Shown piece by piece: positions 48,892 through 62,099 of a stretch of 64,000 nucleotides of DNA. The stretch is from Fibrobacterota bacterium (GTDB taxonomy: Bacteria; Fibrobacterota; Chitinivibrionia; Chitinivibrionales; FEN-1185), in the NCBI GenBank assembly GCA_003165595.1, contig PLWQ01000009.1, positions 79,516 to 143,515 on the forward strand, given 5' to 3'. The position numbers and the translations under genes were made by a program. Within the stretch, counting starts at the first letter, position 1, and every line of letters starts with the position of its first letter. Under the pieces are notes generated by a model. It was not told the origin of the DNA. It saw nothing but the letters and a program-made list of their open reading frames with translations, and made no database searches.

Positions 48892-50712
48892 ATGACCGTT
48901 CAGACCCACAAGCAAATGGCGAATTTCATCTGGAGCATCTGCAACCTGCTGCGCGGTCCGTACAAAAGAAACGAATACCGCAAAGTCATCCTTCCGCTCA
49001 CGGTCCTTCGGCGCTTCGATTGCATTCTCTTGCCCACAAAACAAAAAGTCCTTGCCGAGTTTGCCAAGCTCAAAGGAAAGTCCGAAACGATTATCCAGGC
49101 GCGGCTCAAGGTAATCACACTCGTCCCTTTCTACAACCATTCCAAGCTCACGTTTGAAAAGCTGCTTGACGATCCCAACCACATTGCGCCGAATCTTAAC
49201 GGATACATAAACGGCTTTTCGTTCAATGTTCGCGAGATATTTGAGAAATTCGAGTTTGGCGACGAAGTACGCAAGATGAACGAGAAAAATCTCCTTTACG
49301 AGGTTGTAAAGAAATTCGCTTCTCCCGAGGTCGATCTTTCGCCCGCAAAGATCGATCAGATGCAGATGGGGTACATTTTCGAAGAGCTTATCCGGATAGG
49401 CGCGGAACAGTCGAACGAAGAAGCGGGGGAGCACTTCACCCCGCGAGAGGTTATCAGGCTCATGGTGAACCTGCTTCTGTCCCCGGAACAGGACCTTCGC
49501 AAAAGTCACGTTGTGAAGACGATTTACGATCCGGCGTGTGGGACGGGCGGAATGCTTTCGGTTGCCGAGAATTACATCCGCCAGCTTAACGACGACGCCC
49601 AGCCGCTTCTCTACGGCCAGGACCTTAACGATGAGGCCTGGGCGGTTTGCCGTTCCGACATGCTCATCAAAGGCGAGGAGGCCGACAACATCAAGAACGG
49701 CGATACGTTCACCGATGACGGTTTTCCCAAAGACAAGTTCGATTATATGCTGGCAAACCCACCGTTCGGTGTGGAATGGAAGCAGCAGGCAAAGAAGGTA
49801 AACGACGAGAACGAGAAACTCGGGTACGACGGCCGGTTCGGCGCCGGCCTGCCCCGAATAAACGACGGTTCTTTGCTTTTCCTTCAACATATGGTTTCAA
49901 AAATGCGCCAGCCCAAAGACGGAGGAAGCAGGATCGCCATTGTCTTTAACGGCTCACCATTGTTTACGGGCGACGCGGGAAGCGGTGAATCGGAAATCCG
50001 GCGCTGGATTATCGAGAGCGACTGGCTTGAAGCCATTGTCGCCTTGCCGGACCAGTTGTTCTACAATACCGGCATTTCAACCTATGTGTGGGTGCTTACC
50101 AACAGAAAAGAAAAGCGCCGCAAAGGGAAAATCCAGCTCATTGACGCAAGGCAGTTCTACATCAAGATGCGCAAAAGTCTTGGTAATAAACGCAACCAGA
50201 TAGGCGACGGCGAAGATGGCAGGGTCAATCAGATTAGCGAGATTACAAAGATTTACGGCAACTTCAAGCACGACGAAGCGCGGTCACTCGAAATCGACGG
50301 CGTTAAGAAAACGCTTGTCGTCTCGAAAGTTTTTGACAACGAGGACTTCGGATATAATAAAATTACAGTGGAGCGGCCATTGCTTGACGAAAAGGGGAAG
50401 CCGGTAGTTTCCTCAAAAGGGAAGGCCAAAGGCAAACCGGACGCCGATCCGGACCGCAGAGACACCGAGAACGTTCCACTCAAGGAAAAGATCGACGACT
50501 ATTTCAAGCGCGAAGTTCTGCCCCATGTTCCGGATGCGTGGATCGACCACGATAAAACGAAGGTCGGGTACGAAATACCGCTCAACAGGCACTTTTACAA
50601 GTACGAACCGCCAAGGGAATTGGAAGAAATTGAGGCGGACATTCGGGGGCTGGAGACGGAGATTGTGAAGATGCTGGCAGAGGTGACGGGGAGTGGGGAG
50701 GCGAGGAAATAA
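48892..50712 (+). CDS. hsdM: Type I restriction-modification methyltransferase subunit
   Basis: The 606-aa N6-adenine methyltransferase has the HsdM N-terminal helical domain (1-140), the SAM motif DPACGTGG (213-220) and the catalytic NPPF (289-292), followed by GSGESEIRRWIIE and a C-terminal coiled coil. It is full-length. It needs an HsdS specificity subunit to bind DNA, but none is encoded nearby. A ribosome site (AGGAG) precedes the ATG. A probable terminator follows, separating it from the abi/hsdR remnant. Confidence 0.92.
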   Translation: MTVQTHKQMANFIWSICNLLRGPYKRNEYRKVILPLTVLRRFDCILLPTKQKVLAEFAKLKGKSETIIQARLKVITLVPFYNHSKLTFEKLLDDPNHIAPNLNGYINGFSFNVREIFEKFEFGDEVRKMNEKNLLYEVVKKFASPEVDLSPAKIDQMQMGYIFEELIRIGAEQSNEEAGEHFTPREVIRLMVNLLLSPEQDLRKSHVVKTIYDPACGTGGMLSVAENYIRQLNDDAQPLLYGQDLNDEAWAVCRSDMLIKGEEADNIKNGDTFTDDGFPKDKFDYMLANPPFGVEWKQQAKKVNDENEKLGYDGRFGAGLPRINDGSLLFLQHMVSKMRQPKDGGSRIAIVFNGSPLFTGDAGSGESEIRRWIIESDWLEAIVALPDQLFYNTGISTYVWVLTNRKEKRRKGKIQLIDARQFYIKMRKSLGNKRNQIGDGEDGRVNQISEITKIYGNFKHDEARSLEIDGVKKTLVVSKVFDNEDFGYNKITVERPLLDEKGKPVVSSKGKAKGKPDADPDRRDTENVPLKEKIDDYFKREVLPHVPDAWIDHDKTKVGYEIPLNRHFYKYEPPRELEEIEADIRGLETEIVKMLAEVTGSGEARK

Positions 50713-50756
50713 AATGTGTGCAATCAGGTTCTTTCATAGTATATTATTATTAACAG

Positions 50757-50816
50757 TCCCCGCCACGCTTAGGGCTCTTCGGAGTACCGCGGACCAGGGT
50801 GGGGCTTCTTTTTTAT
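50757..50816 (+). terminator. Probable terminator after hsdM
   Basis: CCGCCAC pairs with GTGGGG around an inner CTC-TTCG-GAG hairpin, and the structure is followed by CTTCTTTTTT. The stem has a bulge. Confidence 0.4.
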
Positions 50817-50874
50817 ACCCCTTCGTCAGGTTCCCCCGTCAAAAAATCACGATGCTTTCAAGTGCGGAGGTATT

Positions 50875-51210
50875 GTGAAATTTCCAAAACCAGCCACAAC
50901 CGTAGCCGAACAACTTGACAAACTCCGTTCACGCGGTATGATTGTCGACGCTCCTGCCGTGGCTGCAGAATTTCTCAACGCCGTTTCGTATTACCGCTTC
51001 AGCGGATATGCGCTTCATTTCGAGTATTTTGAAAATGGAGAACGTACCCATAAATTCAAACCGGGCACGACCTTTGCCAACGTCGTAAGGTTGTACGATT
51101 TCGATTCCGCGTTACGGACAATACTCTTTTCCTTTATTGAGCATGTCGAAATTGCGTTTCGTACTGCGCTATTTCTGGGAAGAGATTTTACAACGCGACA
51201 GTTTTATTGA
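50875..51210 (+). pseudogene. Abi_2 (AbiD/F-like) fragment fused to hsdR DNA
   Basis: The frame opens as an Abi_2 abortive-infection protein: TVAEQLDKLRSRGMIV, AVSYYRFSGYALHF, TFANVVRLYDFDSALRTILF, FIEHVEIAFRTAL. Intact relatives run to about 300 residues and continue after this point. Here the family sequence stops near 51170 and the DNA becomes hsdR in another frame, so the product ends after 111 codons. GTG is the start, with GGAGG 4 bases upstream. It lacks the C-terminal HEPN active-site part and is not expected to work. Confidence 0.75.
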
Positions 51211-53548
51211 AATAATGGGAAGCTTTGTTTTTCTGGAGACGAAGGAAGAAACAATCGATGATGGGGCGGGCGGGAGAACAACGGTTACAAAAGAGACAAT
51301 GATATTCCCGCGCTATCACCAGCTGGATTCTGTACGCAAACTCACAAATACCGCGCGCGAAGAAAAGGCCGGTAACAACTACCTGATACAGCATTCGGCG
51401 GGAAGCGGAAAAACCAACAGCATATCCTGGCTCTCGCACCGGTTATCGAGCCTGCATACCTCTGCCGACGAAAAAATATTCGATTGCGTGGTTGTAATAA
51501 CGGACCGCAAAGTCCTCGACAAACAATTGCAGGACGCAATCTATCAGATAGAACACGCGCAGGGCGTTGTTAAACCGATAGACGACAACTCCCGCCAGCT
51601 TGCGGAAGCATTGGTTGACGGCACAAAAATCGTGATAACCACGTTGCAGAAGTTCCCATTTGTTTTGCGCGGTCTGCTCCACATTTCGGGCGCGGAAAAC
51701 CCGGACGATCCCGACGCCGCATCCGTCCTGCGGGCGAAGGAATGGGAAGAGAAGATTGCGGCCAGGAAATATGCCGTTATCGTTGACGAGGCGCATTCGA
51801 GCCAGACCGGCGAAACTGCCCGTGAACTCAAACGAATACTTGGCGCGGGAACGGAACAAGGTACGGAAGATACCGAAGCCGACTGGGAAGACGGGCTCAA
51901 TCAGATAATGGAATCTCGCGGACGCCAGAAGAACTTGAGCTTCTTTGCGTTCACCGCAACCCCGAAGGGCAAAACGCTGGAACTGTTTGGGCGCGTTGGA
52001 GCTTCGGGTAAGCCAGAGGCGTTCCATACCTATTCCATGCGGCAGGCAATTGAGGAAGAGTTCATCCTCGATGTTCTCAAACGATATACTACATACAAAA
52101 CTTACTTCAGGTTGGTAAAGAAATTCGAAGACGACCCAAGCATGCCCAAAAAACGCGCGGCGAAAAAGCTGGGCAAGTTTCTTGTGTTGCATCCCGTAAA
52201 TATTGAGCAGAGAACCGAGATTATCGTTGAGCATTTCCGGGACCACGTAAGGCAGAAATTGAACGGCCGGGCAAAGGGCATGGTGGTGACCGGTTCGCGT
52301 CTTCATGCAGTTAGATACATGCTTTCGTTTCAGAAGTACATTGCAGAGAACAAATACACCGACATCCGTCCCCTGGTTGCTTTTAGCGGAACAGTGAGAG
52401 ACCCCGATTTAGACAAGGAATTCACTGAGCCGGGAATGAACATCGATGTTGTGTCGGGCAGACCGATTTCCGAAAGCCAGCTTCCGGAACGATTCGACAG
52501 TTCCGATTATCAGGTTCTGCTTGTAGCAAACAAGTATCAAACGGGATTCGACCAGCCGTTATTGTGCGCTATGTACGTTGACAAGAGGCTTGATGGTGTG
52601 CAGGCTGTTCAAACGCTTTCACGTTTGAACCGGACGCATGCGGGAAAAGAACCGCCGTTTGTCCTCGATTTTGTGAACGATACCGAAGGAATCTTCGAAG
52701 CATTCAAACCTTACTATGATGTAACCACGCTTCAGGAACCTTCCGACCCGGGCCATCTGGAAATCCTGAAACACGAATTGAACGCCTTTCAGGTTTATTA
52801 CTGGAGCGAGGTGCAAGCTTTTGCGCAGGTCTTCTACCTTCCGCAGCACCGCCAGAATCCTTCCGATCATGCCCGCATGCAAAAACACATTCAACCGGCA
52901 GTTGACCGTTTCAATGCGTTGGATGAAGAAAAAAAGGAATCCTTCTATGAGAAGCTGACCGCGTATGTCAGTTTCTATTCCTTTATTAGCCAAATAATTC
53001 CATATTCGGATGCCGAGCTTGAGATGCTCTACAGCTTTGGTCGCTTCTTGGTACCTTCTCTAAAGTACGGTGAGGAAAATGTTAATCCTCATCCAGAAAA
53101 AGAAGTAGAGTTGCAATACTACCGGATTGAGAAGGTGAGCTCGGGTTCAATTGTCATGGAGGATGGCGAATCCTACGGCGTCAAAAGCCCGACTGCGGTT
53201 GGCACGGGGAAATCGAAAGATGAGAACAAGCCTCTGTCCGAGATTATAAATGTCTTGAATGAGAAATTCGGCACCGAATTCACCAACGAAGACCGGCTGT
53301 TCTTCGAGCAGATCAAAGAAAAGGCCTGCGCCGACGAACGAATCATCCAGACCGCGCACGCGAATCCTCTCGATAAATTTGAACTCGGTATTAGAAAGAT
53401 CATCGAATCTCTCATGATGCAAAGAATGTCGGAAAACGACGAGATAGTAACCAAGTACATGGATGATGACGCTTTTCAGAAGACCGTCTTTCCGCTTCTG
53501 GCGAAAGAGATTTATGAGGGGATACTGGCCGTTTCGCCAAGCGATTGA
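51143..53548 (+). CDS. hsdR: HsdR translocase lacking its nuclease region
   Basis: The helicase/translocase part of a type I restriction subunit is intact: Walker A HSAGSGKTN, VIVDEAHSSQTGE, FAFTATPKGKT, NKYQTGFDQPLL and QTLSRLNRTHAGK. The N-terminal region (about 250 residues, carrying the PD-(D/E)xK nuclease) is absent; the frame enters from abi sequence at about 51170. Intact HsdR is about 1000 residues, here at most 802. The true start is uncertain: ATG 51143 lies in abi DNA, and ATG 51215 lies 4 bases after the abi-frame stop and could be reached by reinitiation. DNA cleavage is not expected. Confidence 0.8.
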   Translation: MSKLRFVLRYFWEEILQRDSFIEIMGSFVFLETKEETIDDGAGGRTTVTKETMIFPRYHQLDSVRKLTNTAREEKAGNNYLIQHSAGSGKTNSISWLSHRLSSLHTSADEKIFDCVVVITDRKVLDKQLQDAIYQIEHAQGVVKPIDDNSRQLAEALVDGTKIVITTLQKFPFVLRGLLHISGAENPDDPDAASVLRAKEWEEKIAARKYAVIVDEAHSSQTGETARELKRILGAGTEQGTEDTEADWEDGLNQIMESRGRQKNLSFFAFTATPKGKTLELFGRVGASGKPEAFHTYSMRQAIEEEFILDVLKRYTTYKTYFRLVKKFEDDPSMPKKRAAKKLGKFLVLHPVNIEQRTEIIVEHFRDHVRQKLNGRAKGMVVTGSRLHAVRYMLSFQKYIAENKYTDIRPLVAFSGTVRDPDLDKEFTEPGMNIDVVSGRPISESQLPERFDSSDYQVLLVANKYQTGFDQPLLCAMYVDKRLDGVQAVQTLSRLNRTHAGKEPPFVLDFVNDTEGIFEAFKPYYDVTTLQEPSDPGHLEILKHELNAFQVYYWSEVQAFAQVFYLPQHRQNPSDHARMQKHIQPAVDRFNALDEEKKESFYEKLTAYVSFYSFISQIIPYSDAELEMLYSFGRFLVPSLKYGEENVNPHPEKEVELQYYRIEKVSSGSIVMEDGESYGVKSPTAVGTGKSKDENKPLSEIINVLNEKFGTEFTNEDRLFFEQIKEKACADERIIQTAHANPLDKFELGIRKIIESLMMQRMSENDEIVTKYMDDDAFQKTVFPLLAKEIYEGILAVSPSD

Positions 53549-53989
53549 AATTAATGGGCGACCGGAACCGTGGTGAAGCAGGCGGCGTTCCATTGACCGC
53601 TTGTGCGAACCCGGCTTCTGTTGTTTTGTTTTTCTTCCGCCATCAGCGCCGCCCACTTGGCCGAGGGTTTGGCCCGCTCGTGCTGTCCGAGCCCGGCATC
53701 TTTGTTCAGATACTACAATTGTCCTGCCGGGTGAGTTCACGAGCGGCCCGCAGGCCGAGGGATCAGGCGGCGCTGCAGGCGCGGCGCGGATTCCAAAAGG
53801 TGCTCGCTGCAGAGCACCTTTGGTCAGGGTTCGGGGCAGACTGCCCCGACTCATACTTTGGCTACCGAAACCGTCTTGAAGCAGGCGGAATTGATTGCAG
53901 TGGACATCGCGAACGAGAAGTAGGCTGTCGAAAGGCGCACAGATTCGTCATTTGTGGTTTTGCAAAGAATAAAAAGAAGAGAGTTGATT
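53549..53989. repeat. Repeat island with ~170-bp family copy R3
   Basis: No gene is seen. Positions 53631-53790 are copy R3 (CTTCCGCCATCAGCGCCGCC, GAGCCCGGCATCTTTGTT, CTACAATTGTCCTGCCGGGT, GCGCTGCAGGCGCGGCG). A stretch around 53800-53860 (GGTTCGGGGCAGACTGCCCC) is also of repeat type. Confidence 0.7.
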
Positions 53990-54520
53990 ATGCGGAGCAA
54001 ACCTGAAAAGAAAATCGTTATAATTGCCGGTCCAAACGGGTCTGGAAAGACGACATTCGCTCGCGAGTACCTGCCATACGAAGCCGGTTGTCCAGTATTT
54101 GTAAATGCCGATTTGATCGCCGCAGGGCTGGAGCCATTCCGTCCTGAACTGGCCGCGATTCGCGCCGGACGCTTGATGCTGAAAGAAATACAAGAGCATG
54201 TGCGCAAAGGCGAAAGTTTTTCTTTTGAAACGACATTGAGCGGGTTGCTCTATTCTCGCCTTATTCCGGTATGGCGGAAACGTGGGTATAACGTCAAGCT
54301 CATATTCTTGATGTTGCCGAATGTTGCATTTGCCATCGAGCGCGTTGCGGTTTGAGTTAAACAAGGTGGCCATTTCGTGCCGGTGGAAACTATTCGGCGT
54401 CGTTTCTCATCGGGTCAGAAAAATTTCAAGCATGTATACAGGCGAATTGTTGACGCATGGGCGGTTTATGACAATTCCGGTGAAGTTCCGAAACTAATCG
54501 AGGAGGGCACAAATAAATGA
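53990..54520 (+). pseudogene. Zeta-toxin-like kinase interrupted by one stop codon
   Basis: This is a zeta/AAA-type P-loop kinase: IIAGPNGSGKTTFAREYLP, FVNADLIAAGLEPFRPE, FSFETTLSG. The frame meets TGA at 54353-54355 after IERVAV, then continues open and in family register (VKQGGHFVPVETIRRRF, RRIVDAWAVYDNSGEVPKLI) to a second TGA at 54518. Loss of one Arg codon (CGA to TGA) would explain the stop. The Walker A and catalytic Asp remain, but the C-terminal segment is cut off. The ATG at 53990 follows AAGAAGAGAG. Its downstream partner overlaps the distal stop. Confidence 0.8.
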
Positions 54521-55752: not shown

Positions 55753-58158
55753 ATGGATTCCATAGAACAGTCCTATCACAGATACCTCAGATACTTCCTT
55801 GCAAAGGATGATGCCACAGCCACGGTGTACGACAAATACCTGGCGCTTTCCTATGCGGTGCGAAGCGAGATGGTTGACCGCTGGATCGCGACGCAGGGAA
55901 CCTACAACGGCAAGGGGGTGCGGCGGGTATACTTTTTGTCAATGGAATACATCTTCGGCAAGAGTCTTCAGCAGAACATTCTAAGCCTTGACATGGAAGA
56001 TGGTGTGCGCGCGCTGGCGTCCCAGCTCGGGTTCAACATCGAAGAGATTTACGCGCAGGAGGACTCCTTTGATCTCGGCAACGGCGGCAAGGCTCGCCTC
56101 GCCGCGTGTCTGCAGGACGCTCTGGCAACCGCGGGGCTCCCCGCCATGGCCTACGGGCTCAGGTACGATTACGGACAATTCCGCCAGTCCATCGAGGGCG
56201 GGGTCCAGGTGGAAAGACCGTACGACTGGTTGCACAAGGGACATCCATGGGAAATAATCCGTCCGGAATATTCATGTGAAGTCAATTATTACGGGACCGC
56301 CGTGCCCGCGACAAATTCCAATGATCCGCTTGCAGGGGTATGGAAGGACGCCGAGCGGGTTTTGGCCGTGCCGTACGATTTTCCGGTGGCCGGCTTCAAG
56401 AACCGCACCGTCAATACCCTCAGGCTCTGGGTTGCAAGAGCGTCGGAGGAATTTCTCGGCGACTACGCGAACCATGGCGACTATCTTCGCGCCTGTGAAG
56501 ACAAGTCGCGATCGGGCACCATAACAAAAATACTCTTCCCGGAAGAAGACGTTCTCAGGGCCACCGAACTGCGGCTCAAGCAGCAATTCTTTCTCGCAAG
56601 TGCGTCGCTTCAGGACATTATCCGCCGCTTCAAACGAAACAATAGGAATATTCACACTCTGGCCGACAATGTCGTCATCCAACTGAGCGGGAGCAATTGC
56701 GCTTTGGCGGTTGCCGAACTTCTGCGTCTGCTCGTTGACGTCGAAAATGTTCCGTGGAAACAGGCCTGGAGCATTACGTCCCGGGTGTTCGCCTATACTA
56801 GCAACGCGGTTTCGCGCGAGCACCTGGAGGCGTGGCCCGTCTACCTGATAACACAGGTTTTCCCGCGCCACATGCAAATTATCTACGAAATCAACCAGGG
56901 CCACCTGGATGACGTGCGCACGAAGCAAGGTGACAACAACGACCTGATCCGCGACCTTTCTCTTATTGCGGAAGGTGAGGTGCGCCGCGTTAAACTGGGT
57001 CACCTGGCCATGCTCGGATCGTGTGTTGTCAACGGCGTTTCGGCTGCGCAAACCGAAATTCTTAAAAAATCCGTTTTTCCGGAATTCATGGTGATAGCTC
57101 CGGAAAAGTTTCAGACTAAGACCAATGGGATTTCTCACCGGCGGTGGCTCTTATGCGCAAACCGGCCGCTGGGCGATCTCATTAGCAGCGCCATCGGCGA
57201 GGGGTGGATAAAACAGCCGGAGCAATTGTCCAAACTCGAACCGATGGCCGCCGATTCCGCGTTCCTGGAGAAGATGGGAAAGGTGCGGCGTGTATCCAAA
57301 CAGTTGCTTGCCGAGTATATCAGGACCGCGACGGGCGTGTCGGTAAATCCGCACGCAATGTTCGATGTCCAATGCAAAAAGATTCACCAGTACAAGCGCC
57401 AGGTGTTGCACGTGCTTCTTGTGCTGGCGCGGTATCTTCGCATCAAAGGCGGGGAAGCGCCCGGGGCGAACCGCGTGCATATTTTTGCGGGTAAGGCGGC
57501 TCCCTCGGATCAGCTTGCCAAACAGATAATCTGTCTTATCAACGTTGCGGGTGAAATCGTCAATAACGATCCGCAGGTGAAAGACTCCATCAAAGTCGTC
57601 TTTCTTCCCGACTACGGGGTGAGCCTGGCGGAAAAGATCGTTCCGGCGGCCGACCTCTCCGAGCAGATTGCCACGCCGGGCCAGGAGGCAAGCGGCACGG
57701 GGAATGCGAAGTTCGCCGTGAACGGCAGCCTGCTCATGGCAAGCAAGAGCGGGTCGAATATGGAGATAGTCGATCGCGTGGGCGCGGAAAACGTTTTTGT
57801 GTTCGGCAGAAGCGCGCCGGAGCTTCCTTCTGTCAACCTGTATCAACCTTACGACCTTTTGTCGGCCAACGCCTCGCTCTCCGCGATATTCAAGTTCGTT
57901 CAAGGGCAGCTCGATCGTCTTTCTCCCACCGCGCTCTGCATTCGTCCGCTCCTGTCCACGCTCATGGATTCGGACCGCTACTTCGTTCTGCTGGATTTCG
58001 ACGACTATGTCCGGAAACAGGACGAGGCCGACGCACTGTTCGGGAATTCCAGGGAGTGGGCGAAAAGAGCTCTTGTGAATATCTCGCGCTGCGGCTATTT
58101 TTCCATTGACCGGACCGTCAGCCAGTACGCGACCGATATCTGGAAAGTAAAGCAGTAA
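55753..58158 (+). CDS. GT35 glycogen phosphorylase-fold protein with altered active site
   Basis: The 801-aa protein aligns end to end with glycogen/starch phosphorylases. The PLP site (K653 in EASGTGNAKF) and phosphate-side KKIHQYKRQ are kept. The glucose side is not: QLNDTHPALA is QLSGSNCALA (310-319), YTNHT is YTSNA (348-352), GNGGLGR is GNGGKAR (109-115), and TIGTLDGANVE is LMASKSGSNME. These replace residues equivalent to Asp339, His341 and His377 of the muscle enzyme. Normal phosphorolysis is unlikely. The ATG at 55753 starts the family fold. It is coupled to enzyme I by a TAATG overlap, so a regulatory or altered-substrate role is inferred. Confidence 0.85.
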   Translation: MDSIEQSYHRYLRYFLAKDDATATVYDKYLALSYAVRSEMVDRWIATQGTYNGKGVRRVYFLSMEYIFGKSLQQNILSLDMEDGVRALASQLGFNIEEIYAQEDSFDLGNGGKARLAACLQDALATAGLPAMAYGLRYDYGQFRQSIEGGVQVERPYDWLHKGHPWEIIRPEYSCEVNYYGTAVPATNSNDPLAGVWKDAERVLAVPYDFPVAGFKNRTVNTLRLWVARASEEFLGDYANHGDYLRACEDKSRSGTITKILFPEEDVLRATELRLKQQFFLASASLQDIIRRFKRNNRNIHTLADNVVIQLSGSNCALAVAELLRLLVDVENVPWKQAWSITSRVFAYTSNAVSREHLEAWPVYLITQVFPRHMQIIYEINQGHLDDVRTKQGDNNDLIRDLSLIAEGEVRRVKLGHLAMLGSCVVNGVSAAQTEILKKSVFPEFMVIAPEKFQTKTNGISHRRWLLCANRPLGDLISSAIGEGWIKQPEQLSKLEPMAADSAFLEKMGKVRRVSKQLLAEYIRTATGVSVNPHAMFDVQCKKIHQYKRQVLHVLLVLARYLRIKGGEAPGANRVHIFAGKAAPSDQLAKQIICLINVAGEIVNNDPQVKDSIKVVFLPDYGVSLAEKIVPAADLSEQIATPGQEASGTGNAKFAVNGSLLMASKSGSNMEIVDRVGAENVFVFGRSAPELPSVNLYQPYDLLSANASLSAIFKFVQGQLDRLSPTALCIRPLLSTLMDSDRYFVLLDFDDYVRKQDEADALFGNSREWAKRALVNISRCGYFSIDRTVSQYATDIWKVKQ

Positions 58159-59903
58159 TGAAGAAGGAAGAAAGGCTCACGGGCATCACCGTGGTGGGCG
58201 GCAAAGGCCTTGGGGCGGCGTATTTCGTCGGCCGCGGAATGGAGCAGCCGTCCGCGGTTTCCATATCGCGCCAGGACGTTGGCGATCAGATCATGCGGTT
58301 CAACGAGATCCGGGAAAAAGCAAAAAAAGACTACGCGCTTCTGGCCAAGAAATCCGATTCAACCGTTACGCCTTCCATCCTTCCCATTTACGAGCACATC
58401 CTCGATGATCCGTCGTTTATCGGCCAGGTGGTCGAAACCATTTCAACAAAGCTATACGACCTCGAAACTTCCATCCGTCTTGTGCTCAATGACCTTGTCA
58501 AGCGCTTCAACGGCGCGGACACGCCCTATCTCAAGGAGCGCAGCGGCGACATCGTGGAAGTGTGCGAGAAGCTCATTTCCTATTTGTACCAGGACGACGG
58601 GAGAGCCAAGGGATTCATGGAACCCGTGGTTCTCGTGGTTCTCAGGACATTCACGCCCTCAGATATTCTCTCCTACGACCGGACGATGATCCGGGCCGTC
58701 GTGAGCGCGAGCGGCGGCAAGACGTCCCATGCGGCTATTATCGCGCGCGCCTATTCGATTCCGGTGGTGTCGGGAGTAAGAGACATTCAAAAGAGCGTTT
58801 GTCCCGGGGATCAGCTGTACGTTGACGCCGACAAGGGAATCGTACACGTGCGGCCGAACCCGTCGGTGGTGAGCAAGATGCCCCAGAAACGGGCCTGGCA
58901 GGACGAGCTCGATAAGCTGCAGAACAAGTGGCAGCGCCCGGTTTACACACGCGATGGAATTCATATTGAAGTGCTCGCCAATGTCTCGCTTCCCGAAGAC
59001 GTTTCGGAGGCGAACCGGTTTGGCGCCGACGGCATCGGTCTCGTGCGCACGGAGTACTTGCTGTCGAACAGGAAGAGTTTCCCGGACGAGGATATGCAGC
59101 GCGCCTACTACGAACAGATCTTCGAGAATACCGGGGGCAAGCATTGCGTCATTAGGATCATGGATATCGGCGGGGACAAGGTGCCCGAGTTTTTCGACAT
59201 GCCCGCAGAGTTCAACCCCTTTATGGGATGGCGCGGAATAAGGATCCTGCTCGAACGGAAAGAGCTTTTCGAATCGCAGGTTTCCGCAATCATGAAGGCG
59301 GGGAAGAAACACGACTATTCCCTGATGGTTCCGATGGTGACAACGCTGCAGGAATGGCTGGAGGCGAAAAAAGTCATCGCGGCCGTTGCGGCGCGCTGCG
59401 GCGTGAAAATGCCGCAATGCGGAGTCCTGTTCGAGGTGCCGCTGGCGATTCTCGAAATGGATACGTTCATGAAAGAGATCGATTTCGCCGCGATAGGCAC
59501 CAACGATCTCATTCAGTACTTGAGCGCCGCCGATCGAAATAATTCAAAAGTGAACTATCTTTACAATCCAATAGAGCCCGCTTTTCTCAGGATAATCAAG
59601 AACGCGATGAATGTTTCAAAAGACAACGGCAAGCCGCTTTCCATTTGCGGCGAAATGGCCGGCAACGCGTTTCATTCCATTCTGCTTCTCGGTCTTGGCC
59701 TCAAACGGTTCAGCGTCATTCCCAGGGCTATTCCAATCATCAAGGAAATCGTTTCACGCGTGAGTTTCGCGGAGGCGGCCGAGAGTGTTTCTCACATAGA
59801 TTCCCTTGAATCCACGGAAGAAGTATCGAAGTGGCTCAAGAGCCTGCACAAGCGGCTCCTGGGAGAACTGCTGGAAAAACTGCCCCTTGTTGCGGAAGTG
59901 TAG
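58158..59903 (+). CDS. ptsI: PTS enzyme I (PEP-protein phosphotransferase)
   Basis: The 581-aa protein is a complete enzyme I: phospho-His H191 in SGGKTSHAAIIAR, GIGLVRTEYL, MDIGGDKVPEF, NPFMGWRGIR, FAAIGTNDLIQY and C497 in SICGEMAGN. It moves phosphate from PEP to HPr. No HPr, EIIA or sugar permease is near. There is no N-terminal GAF domain, so it is not PtsP. It overlaps the GT35-like gene by one base, suggesting the two proteins act together. The symbol reflects family only; it need not be the housekeeping enzyme I. Confidence 0.9.
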   Translation: MKKEERLTGITVVGGKGLGAAYFVGRGMEQPSAVSISRQDVGDQIMRFNEIREKAKKDYALLAKKSDSTVTPSILPIYEHILDDPSFIGQVVETISTKLYDLETSIRLVLNDLVKRFNGADTPYLKERSGDIVEVCEKLISYLYQDDGRAKGFMEPVVLVVLRTFTPSDILSYDRTMIRAVVSASGGKTSHAAIIARAYSIPVVSGVRDIQKSVCPGDQLYVDADKGIVHVRPNPSVVSKMPQKRAWQDELDKLQNKWQRPVYTRDGIHIEVLANVSLPEDVSEANRFGADGIGLVRTEYLLSNRKSFPDEDMQRAYYEQIFENTGGKHCVIRIMDIGGDKVPEFFDMPAEFNPFMGWRGIRILLERKELFESQVSAIMKAGKKHDYSLMVPMVTTLQEWLEAKKVIAAVAARCGVKMPQCGVLFEVPLAILEMDTFMKEIDFAAIGTNDLIQYLSAADRNNSKVNYLYNPIEPAFLRIIKNAMNVSKDNGKPLSICGEMAGNAFHSILLLGLGLKRFSVIPRAIPIIKEIVSRVSFAEAAESVSHIDSLESTEEVSKWLKSLHKRLLGELLEKLPLVAEV

Positions 59904-60132: not shown

Positions 60133-61044
60133 TTACAATCCAAGCAGGAGCGCCACCACCAACCGCTGTTTTGTGGCATCGTCAAACGAAAAGGCCCGCT
60201 CGAAGTCCACGGAAAGTCCCATGCTGTAGCACCGTTTCTTGATATAGAATGGCTGGCGGATGGAGATGCCCAGCATGTAGTGAAAGTAATATTCCACGTA
60301 CCCGCCACGGACATTGCCTCGTAAATTGGTGTAACCTATCACCGCATTATCGAGGCCGATGCCGGCCATCGGCGAATATTCGAATGGAATATTCTGAATT
60401 GTGAACGGTACGCCGAGGCGGATCTCATTGGTCGCGGTGATCAAGGCCATCAAGATTGCCGTGTCGTTGGGCACTGCCCAGTGGAACGTCGCTTTTGCGT
60501 GATAATAGAGCATGGCAAAAGGAATCTTGAGAGGAAACAGAAGGCCGACTGCGACACCGGAACCCCCCACGTCGAATTGCTGCAACTTTGTTTTTGACGA
60601 GAGATATTCGTTAAGCGCCACCTCAATCACCACAAGGCTTTCGTAGGAAAGGTGTTGGGGAGTTCGTATTACAGACGGGGCCTGGGACGTGTCGCGGCCC
60701 GCTTCCGGGCCAAGCAAGGAAAGAATCGAGTCCTTCCGCGCCGAGTCGGCAGGAGAAAGGGCAGCGGCTGCCGAATCGGGATTCTGGCCCGTGGTTGTCA
60801 TCAGCCCGTGCAGGGAGTCGTCGAGCGATTGTTGCCTGCTCGTGCTGCGCGCGCCCGGTTCCTGTGCGTTTTCGGCAGGAAGTTCAAGCCGGGGTTCGGT
60901 GCTGTCGCTTTCCATCTGGGCGTGCGCGCACGTAACGAGGGAAAATCCCAGGATCACCGAGACGAATGCGAATCGACCGGCAGTTGTAGCGCCGTTTGAT
61001 TCTCTTCTGAAGAACTGCCGAACCGCTGCACCGACGCGCATCAT
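60133..61044 (-). CDS. Exported outer-membrane-like protein, tandem paralogue 2
   Basis: The 303-aa protein has a signal peptide (ATTAGRFAFVSVILGFSLVTCAHAQ), a polar linker rich in Ser/Asp/Gln (about 45-125) and a C-terminal beta-rich domain (FDVGGSGVAVGLLFPLK, YYHAKATFHW, NEIRLGVPFTIQNIPFEYSPMAGIGLDNAVIGY, YYFHYMLGISIRQPFYIKKR). It ends in a hydrophobic strand, LVVALLLGL, like barrel proteins. The first of two adjacent ATGs (61044) is used, 8 bases after the upstream gene. It is paralogous to that gene. Family unknown. Confidence 0.7.
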   Translation of the reverse strand: MMRVGAAVRQFFRRESNGATTAGRFAFVSVILGFSLVTCAHAQMESDSTEPRLELPAENAQEPGARSTSRQQSLDDSLHGLMTTTGQNPDSAAAALSPADSARKDSILSLLGPEAGRDTSQAPSVIRTPQHLSYESLVVIEVALNEYLSSKTKLQQFDVGGSGVAVGLLFPLKIPFAMLYYHAKATFHWAVPNDTAILMALITATNEIRLGVPFTIQNIPFEYSPMAGIGLDNAVIGYTNLRGNVRGGYVEYYFHYMLGISIRQPFYIKKRCYSMGLSVDFERAFSFDDATKQRLVVALLLGL

Positions 61045-61052
61045 GTACCCCG

Positions 61053-61961
61053 TTAAATGCCCAGGAGAAGGCTTATTACCAAATGCTGCTTCGTATCTTC
61101 GTCCGCGATAAACGCACGTTCGAAGTCGGCGTTCAAACCTATCGAATAGAGACGTTCCTGATACACGAAAAGCTGGCGAATGCAGAGGCCCACCTCCCAA
61201 TGGAAATAATAGTGGGTTTCCAACCCAATGATGTTCCCGCTTTGCATGCCCGTAATGATCATCCCGTTGTTGTAGCCGATCCCCGCCGCGGGAAGAAACT
61301 GACAGGGAATCCCTCCAAGATAGAACGATTTCCCCACGCGGAGTTCGTTCGTTGCAGTAAAGTAGGTCACCGTTTTCTTGACATCGGAGACCGCTCCGTT
61401 GAATGACCCCCGTGCGTGATAGTACATCGACACGTACGAGAACCGCAGCGGGATAAGCACGCCCAGGGCAAAACCGGCCGGGTCTACCAGGTACTTCGTG
61501 AATTTCGCGTTGGATTTGGTATAGACGTTGGATCCGATCTCGATGACCCCGACGCCTTCATAGGGTTCTTTCGAACTGTATGCGGCGCCGGAGCTGTCCT
61601 TCACATAGTATTGACTGAAGAAGGTCTTCCAGAAACCCTGCTGGACGGCCGATGAATTTTGACTGTCTGCAGGTTGCTTTGCGGTCTTGACGCCGCCGGC
61701 TTGCGGAGCGGCAGTACCCGTCGCTAGCGTGTCTTTCCGGCGGTTCAGCAGCGAATCCATGTTGATTTCTGCGGCATGGGAAGCCGGAGCAAGTGACTTT
61801 GCGGTGTCGTTTTGCCGGTTCTTCACCGAATCAATAGTGATCTTCTGGCCTGTTGCCTCGGTGTCGGGCAGGGGAGCCAAAGATTCCTGGCAGAGGGCAC
61901 TTCCTGCAAGGATCGCTATTGTCAGGCAGGAGCACAGGACGCTCGATGTCGTTGCAGTCAT
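61053..61961 (-). CDS. Exported outer-membrane-like protein, tandem paralogue 1
   Basis: The 302-aa protein begins with a signal peptide (SSVLCSCLTIAILAGSALCQ), then a low-complexity linker with two related DS(V/L)xNRxxDT segments, and a C-terminal beta-rich domain matching the downstream paralogue (ALGVLIPLRFSYVSMYYHAR, NELRVGKSFYLGGIPCQFLPAAGIGYNNGMII, YYFHWEVGLCIRQLFVYQERLYSIGLNADFERAF). The ATG at 61961 is chosen because the signal peptide starts there. Function is unknown; a small barrel or periplasmic adaptor is possible. Confidence 0.7.
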   Translation of the reverse strand: MTATTSSVLCSCLTIAILAGSALCQESLAPLPDTEATGQKITIDSVKNRQNDTAKSLAPASHAAEINMDSLLNRRKDTLATGTAAPQAGGVKTAKQPADSQNSSAVQQGFWKTFFSQYYVKDSSGAAYSSKEPYEGVGVIEIGSNVYTKSNAKFTKYLVDPAGFALGVLIPLRFSYVSMYYHARGSFNGAVSDVKKTVTYFTATNELRVGKSFYLGGIPCQFLPAAGIGYNNGMIITGMQSGNIIGLETHYYFHWEVGLCIRQLFVYQERLYSIGLNADFERAFIADEDTKQHLVISLLLGI

Positions 61962-62099
61962 TCGTGGCTGTTCTTCCTGGTGAAGGTCTCTCAACGATAT
62001 AACTATTATCCATATCCGGGTGGAACTTTGTCAATTGTTTCGGCACAATGGGGCGCAGAGGGGTGAGGAGCGGCAAGACCATCAACCTGCGCGGCCCGG

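Follow-up and report, generated by a model that had tools for sequence, protein, structure and literature searches.

The GT35 and enzyme I genes of the window

The window analysed here is a stretch of 64,000 nucleotides from a Fibrobacterota bacterium of the order Chitinivibrionales (contig PLWQ01000009.1, assembly GCA_003165595.1). It holds, on the + strand, a gene for a protein with the glycogen phosphorylase (GP) fold of family GT35, directly followed by a gene for enzyme I (EI) of the phosphoenolpyruvate (PEP)-dependent phosphotransferase system (PTS). The GT35 open reading frame (ORF; 55753..58157, 801 aa) begins at the ATG at 55753, a start backed by alignment with orthologues, and its stop ends at 58157-58158. 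In profile searches it matched full-length to PF00343 (836 bits) and TIGR02093 (896 bits against a cut-off of 553). The AlphaFold2 model (pLDDT 83.7) was superposed by Foldseek on rabbit glycogen phosphorylase b (GPb) with a TM score of 0.91, showing the GT35 family fold. Residues 139-170 and 231-269, which form part of what was rebuilt in the clade described below, are weakly modelled, so that only the fold is confirmed; the new pocket was not readable from the model or from Foldseek, which restate the GT35 fold. The genome (5.4 Mb, 98% complete) carries a second, canonical GT35 gene on another contig (G000:C37), whose product is 44% identical.

The downstream gene (58158..59903, + strand) encodes a PEP-protein phosphotransferase of 581 aa with a complete active site. 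It matched TIGR01417 with 436 bits (cut-off 342), and the N, mobile and C domains of EI were all found in Pfam. The phospho-His motif GGKTSHAAI, the PEP-site arginines and the cysteine of CGEMAG are intact. The two genes meet in a GTAATG/TAATG stop-start overlap (58155..58160, + strand) suggestive of translational coupling; ATGA or TAATG overlaps were found in most orthologous pairs and short gaps in the rest. An earlier note on this DNA had described a GT35 paralogue and a complete EI sharing TAATG, and both ORFs, the overlap and the family matches were recovered here. No RNA elements were found near the pair, and promoter and terminator scans around it were not clearly above shuffled sequences.

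Replacement of active-site residues in the GT35 paralogue

The window protein was aligned with human liver phosphorylase and is described in rabbit numbering; the contacts that these positions make to glucose, glucan, phosphate and pyridoxal phosphate (PLP) are established for rabbit GPb and E. coli MalP. The counts that follow refer to 29 main-clade orthologues. At 56077..56094, canonical GNGGLG reads GNGGKA, with L136 replaced by K (window K113; K in 27/29, L never) and G137 by A. The 280s gate loop (56536..56550) is FPEED instead of YPNDN, through the changes Y280>F, D283>E (window E265; E in 29/29) and N284>D. At 56686..56700 (window residues 312-316), NDTHP has become SGSNC by D339>G, T340>S, H341>N and P342>C; G339 is found in 29/29 and C342 in 28/29 orthologues, while position 341 is never H and is R in 24/29. 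TNHT is replaced by TSNA at 56797..56808 (N376>S, H377>N, T378>A), with A378 in 28/29 and H377 retained in only 9/29. Finally, the glucan-acceptor/inhibitor-site tyrosine Y613 is D (57508..57510), as in all 29 orthologues. The glucose- and acceptor-site residues L136, D339, H341, H377 and Y613 are thus all replaced in the window copy.

On the phosphate/PLP-phosphate side, the motif KKIHQYK (57376..57396) keeps K568 and K574 and carries R569>K; the orthologues retain these residues in 6/29 (K568), 24/29 (K574) and 4/29 (R569). The PLP lysine K653 (rabbit K680; 57709..57711) is retained in the window protein and in 29/29 of the main clade. All these features lie on the + strand. The motif exchanges listed in the earlier note (GNGGLG to GNGGKA, NDTHP to SGSNC, YTNHT to YTSNA and GT(M/L)DGAN to SKSGSN) are correct, and the equivalents of Asp339, His341 and His377, which it proposed to map, are G, N and N. 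Further canonical residues, which the note did not name, are lost through the changes D283>E, P342>C, Y613>D and Y280>F. Its statement that the PLP lysine and the phosphate-side motif are kept holds for K680, K568 and K574, but R569, a contact to the substrate phosphate, is K, so that the motif is only nearly intact.

Conservation of the replacements in a clade restricted to Chitinivibrionales

When 168 Fibrobacterota genomes were searched, 40 of them from Chitinivibrionales, orthologues of the window GT35 protein (46-74% identity) were found in this order only. Outside it, a contig scan of genomes returned only canonical GT35 among the best 80 matches listed. The EI-linked GT35 proteins form one clade against canonical GT35 in the tree (SH-aLRT 100), indicating one origin. 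One divergent family, f4 (genomes G026-G030), has upstream of EI a protein only 31-40% identical to that of the window, whose match to PF00343 still runs the length of the protein (393-570 bits in the four tested). The tree including f4 has long branches: its split from the canonical enzymes is trusted, whereas its exact position is not.

A set of 87 canonical sequences shares 181 invariant positions. In the clade, losses affect 17 of the 31 that lie in the active site, compared with 29 of the other 150 (Fisher p=1.5e-4). L136, D283, D339, H341, N376, T378 and Y613, all invariant or nearly so in the canonical sequences, never occur in the clade, and the replacement residues at 136, 283, 339, 342, 378 and 613 are fixed or nearly fixed. 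The active-site replacements are not chance events, because they are (nearly) fixed across the clade and the losses are concentrated in the active site. Simple degeneration was rejected since the replacement residues are themselves conserved. Calling the window protein degenerate, as had been done, is therefore misleading, all the more so as it is the least altered member among those seen.

The phosphate side is more variable: K568, R569, Y573 and N484 are each missing from a majority or roughly half of the orthologues, and in 26/29 the PLP-phosphate loop has another residue, mostly Phe, in place of G677. In three f4 genomes (G026, G029 and G030) there is no lysine at or beside the PLP position, and the gene pair is kept. 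The shared role can thus do without PLP, which speaks against a PLP sensor, and likewise against a PLP enzyme of changed substrate, as the explanation for the whole family. The proposal of a PLP- and phosphate-binding sensor is consequently not supported for the family. A side observation concerns H241 (56473-56475; rabbit position 259), beside GDY, a clade-specific, near-invariant histidine that f4 retains as well and at whose position canonical enzymes vary; it is a candidate phospho-acceptor or interface residue.

Pairing of the GT35 paralogue with enzyme I

The GT35 paralogue lies directly upstream of EI on the same strand in 36/40 Chitinivibrionales genomes, window included. In three of the remaining four (G011, G019 and G036) contig ends cut the locus, and in G003 neither gene was found. 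The earlier note had staked its reading on the pair being conserved in other genomes; present in 36/36 evaluable genomes, that of the window included, the pair passes this attempt at refutation. The downstream EI is 61-82% identical to that of the window in most families and 41-50% in f4, and every linked EI, f4 included, retains the phospho-His, PEP-site and Cys residues. Other flanking genes (GTP cyclohydrolase I, an esterase, a PAS histidine kinase) are only partly shared between families. No EI was found near canonical GT35 genes, either at the 8 canonical Fibrobacterota loci or, in other phyla, at 78 loci among the best 80 matches listed (flanks up to 8 kb).

Selection and covariation of rates

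In close pairs, the ratio of nonsynonymous to synonymous substitution rates (dN/dS, NG86 method) was 0.07-0.14 for the GT35 paralogue, 0.02-0.09 for EI and 0.10 for canonical GP, rough values since dS was saturated in several pairs. With catalytic residues lost, the fold kept and purifying selection acting, the paralogue is, as judged from its sequence, probably a pseudoenzyme. Its evolutionary distances follow those of EI closely across 22 genomes (r 0.98 raw, 0.96 controlling for canonical GP). When TypA was added as a control (14 genomes), the partial correlation was 0.90, or 0.81 without f4 (Mantel p=0.001). The control partials with EI, for canonical GP and TypA, were -0.15 to -0.30, and the partial r between the pseudoenzyme and canonical GP was only 0.16-0.27.

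Conservation is also redistributed along the protein. In the clade the N-terminal 50 residues, which vary in canonical enzymes, rank second among the blocks in conservation (0.70 vs 0.53 canonical), and most blocks holding the active site fall below the canonical level. Such a shift would be expected if catalysis had given way to a role in protein-protein contact, but does not prove that it did.

PTS components of the genome

The genome also encodes HPr (G000:C41), HPr kinase and four EIIA_2 domains. The EIIC families PF02378 (glucose superfamily) and PF03609 (mannose family) were not found in it, other permease families not having been searched. With HPr, HPr kinase and EIIA present without these EIICs, the phosphorelay appears regulatory rather than sugar-transporting. 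A regulatory PTS locus is suggested by L167 (G000:C41, 8008-10265, - strand), where HPr kinase and HPr are encoded together with an MCE-like gene. Five enzyme-I-like proteins were noted in the genome (C14:137673, C27:11748, C36:50788, C23:16258 and C14:46605). The EI of the window represents a distinct subfamily; the genome's other EI-like proteins are 26-34% identical to it.

A probable dedicated partner of enzyme I

The loss of catalytic residues, the strict pairing with EI, the purifying selection, the rate covariation and the intact EI motifs lead us to favour, with moderate confidence, the explanation that the GT35 pseudoenzyme is a dedicated protein partner (subunit, scaffold or regulator) of the downstream EI. 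It would have kept the glycogen phosphorylase fold with its phosphorolysis site dismantled, would be produced in step with the adjacent EI, and would hold EI or tune either the autophosphorylation of EI from PEP or the transfer of phosphate from EI to HPr; it possibly descended from a PTS-regulated phosphorylase. Physical binding to EI is predicted by this explanation, as would be a regulatory effect in one direction or the other and, perhaps, a bound ligand. Of the joint function imagined in the earlier note, the part that stands is a non-catalytic GT35 fold tied to EI; the part without support is the PLP/phosphate sensor as a family trait. Only tentatively, we further propose that the fold was converted once, in the ancestor of the order, to an obligate regulatory subunit of EI that controls how phosphate from PEP enters a PTS lacking permeases, the former glucose site being plugged or re-purposed as a ligand pocket.

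Several observations weigh against a dedicated partner. Pseudoenzyme distances also correlate partly, to a lesser degree, with those of TypA (partial r 0.50-0.63), and gene adjacency could contribute to the covariation with EI. Genome G153, from another order, has a distant EI relative (46%) without an adjacent GT35 gene; this type of EI therefore does not universally need the partner, and may predate the partnership. E672, N484, K568, K574 and K680 are retained in the window protein, which could thus retain some chemistry. The new residues of the sugar site, strictly conserved in the main clade, would also fit a new ligand or substrate site.

This last point leads to an alternative which we regard as unlikely, although it survives better than the others: a neofunctionalised enzyme whose glucose site was rebuilt (K136, E283, D284, R341, S376, D613) to take another substrate, perhaps a charged one, that the PTS link supplies or senses, with PLP chemistry kept. 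The near-invariance of the new residues in the main clade, the PLP lysine present throughout it and the retention of most phosphate-side residues in the window copy agree with such an enzyme. However, K568, R569, Y573 and N484, which phosphate-dependent GT35 chemistry needs, vary, G677 is mostly replaced, and the three f4 genomes without the PLP lysine keep the pair.

Less probable still is a regulatory subunit of canonical glycogen phosphorylase, forming a pseudo/active heterodimer to which the co-expressed EI would signal the PTS state for the control of glycogen breakdown. GT35 proteins are dimers, most pair-bearing genomes including that of the window have a canonical copy, and there is a precedent in the control of GlgP by HPr. 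Nevertheless, in six pair-bearing genomes (G016, G018, G020, G023, G033 and G034) only the pseudoenzyme was returned, with the caveat of genome incompleteness, which argues against a role solely as a canonical-phosphorylase subunit; the rates also covary with EI and much less with canonical GP.

That the protein is an ordinary alpha-glucan phosphorylase which tolerates its substitutions and shares an operon with EI for convenience only is very improbable: despite the high overall GT35 similarity and the little-altered window copy, the seven canonical residues named above never occur in the clade, and the pairing is complete in the order though other flanking genes differ between families. A decaying pseudogene awaiting loss can practically be dismissed, since the gene, although evolving faster than its canonical paralogue, shows low dN/dS, has no internal stop in any of the copies listed, arose once and long ago, and is retained almost throughout the order.

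Relation to known systems

In E. coli, HPr is described as binding the glycogen phosphorylase GlgP and controlling its activity (PMC5320558, citing Seok 1997; PMC11046441), and PDB entries 9s8b and 9s8k both contain glycogen phosphorylase and HPr chains. There too a GT35 protein is linked to a general PTS phosphocarrier and the PTS state is coupled to a phosphorylase fold. However, the E. coli protein is an active enzyme under HPr, whereas the protein described here has a dismantled catalytic site and is genetically paired with EI. The clade shares with GT35 phosphorylases (TIGR02093; rabbit GPb, E. coli MalP) the fold, the length, full-length homology (about 42-45% identity) and, in most members, the PLP lysine; it differs in its replaced glucose site, acceptor site and gate loop, in the loss of the phosphate site in most members and in that of the PLP lysine in some. 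The EI itself has the domains and catalytic motifs of TIGR01417, and its company of HPr, HPr kinase and EIIA_2 with no EIIC of the two searched families resembles permease-free chains of the PTS-Ntr type. Unlike them, it belongs to a distinct subfamily and is preceded by a GT35 pseudoenzyme.

Nothing relevant on a GT35 pseudoenzyme or on the Chitinivibrio PTS was found in the literature searched, in which no bacterial GT35 pseudoenzyme came to light. If the pseudoenzyme were indeed an obligate subunit, this EI would be, to our knowledge, the first with a dedicated pseudoenzyme subunit. Should the two proteins really be partners, a metabolic enzyme, perhaps once PTS-controlled, would have been turned into a PTS component, and the pair would lend itself as a natural model for studying how a regulatory phosphorelay is controlled at its first step. 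There is also a warning for annotation, as 896 bits against a phosphorylase model are reached here by a protein that is probably no phosphorylase. Glycogen-breakdown capacity is likely to be over-called in Chitinivibrionales, the pseudoenzyme being the sole GT35 match in six genomes.

Other features of the window

Downstream of the pair, two adjacent, similar-looking proteins of 355 and 313 aa, probably exported and without a Pfam match, are encoded on the - strand (60133-61994). Upstream, 48892-53548 holds a type I restriction-modification remnant, in which an HsdM-like ORF is followed by a truncated Abi_2 ORF (50875-51210, positions 1-63 of 184) that overlaps the start of an 803-aa HsdR-like ORF; the region looks rearranged. 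Between this remnant and the GT35 gene lies a short zeta-toxin-like kinase ORF (53954-54355, 133 aa), which matches PF06414 at positions 10-140 of 199 and is probably truncated.

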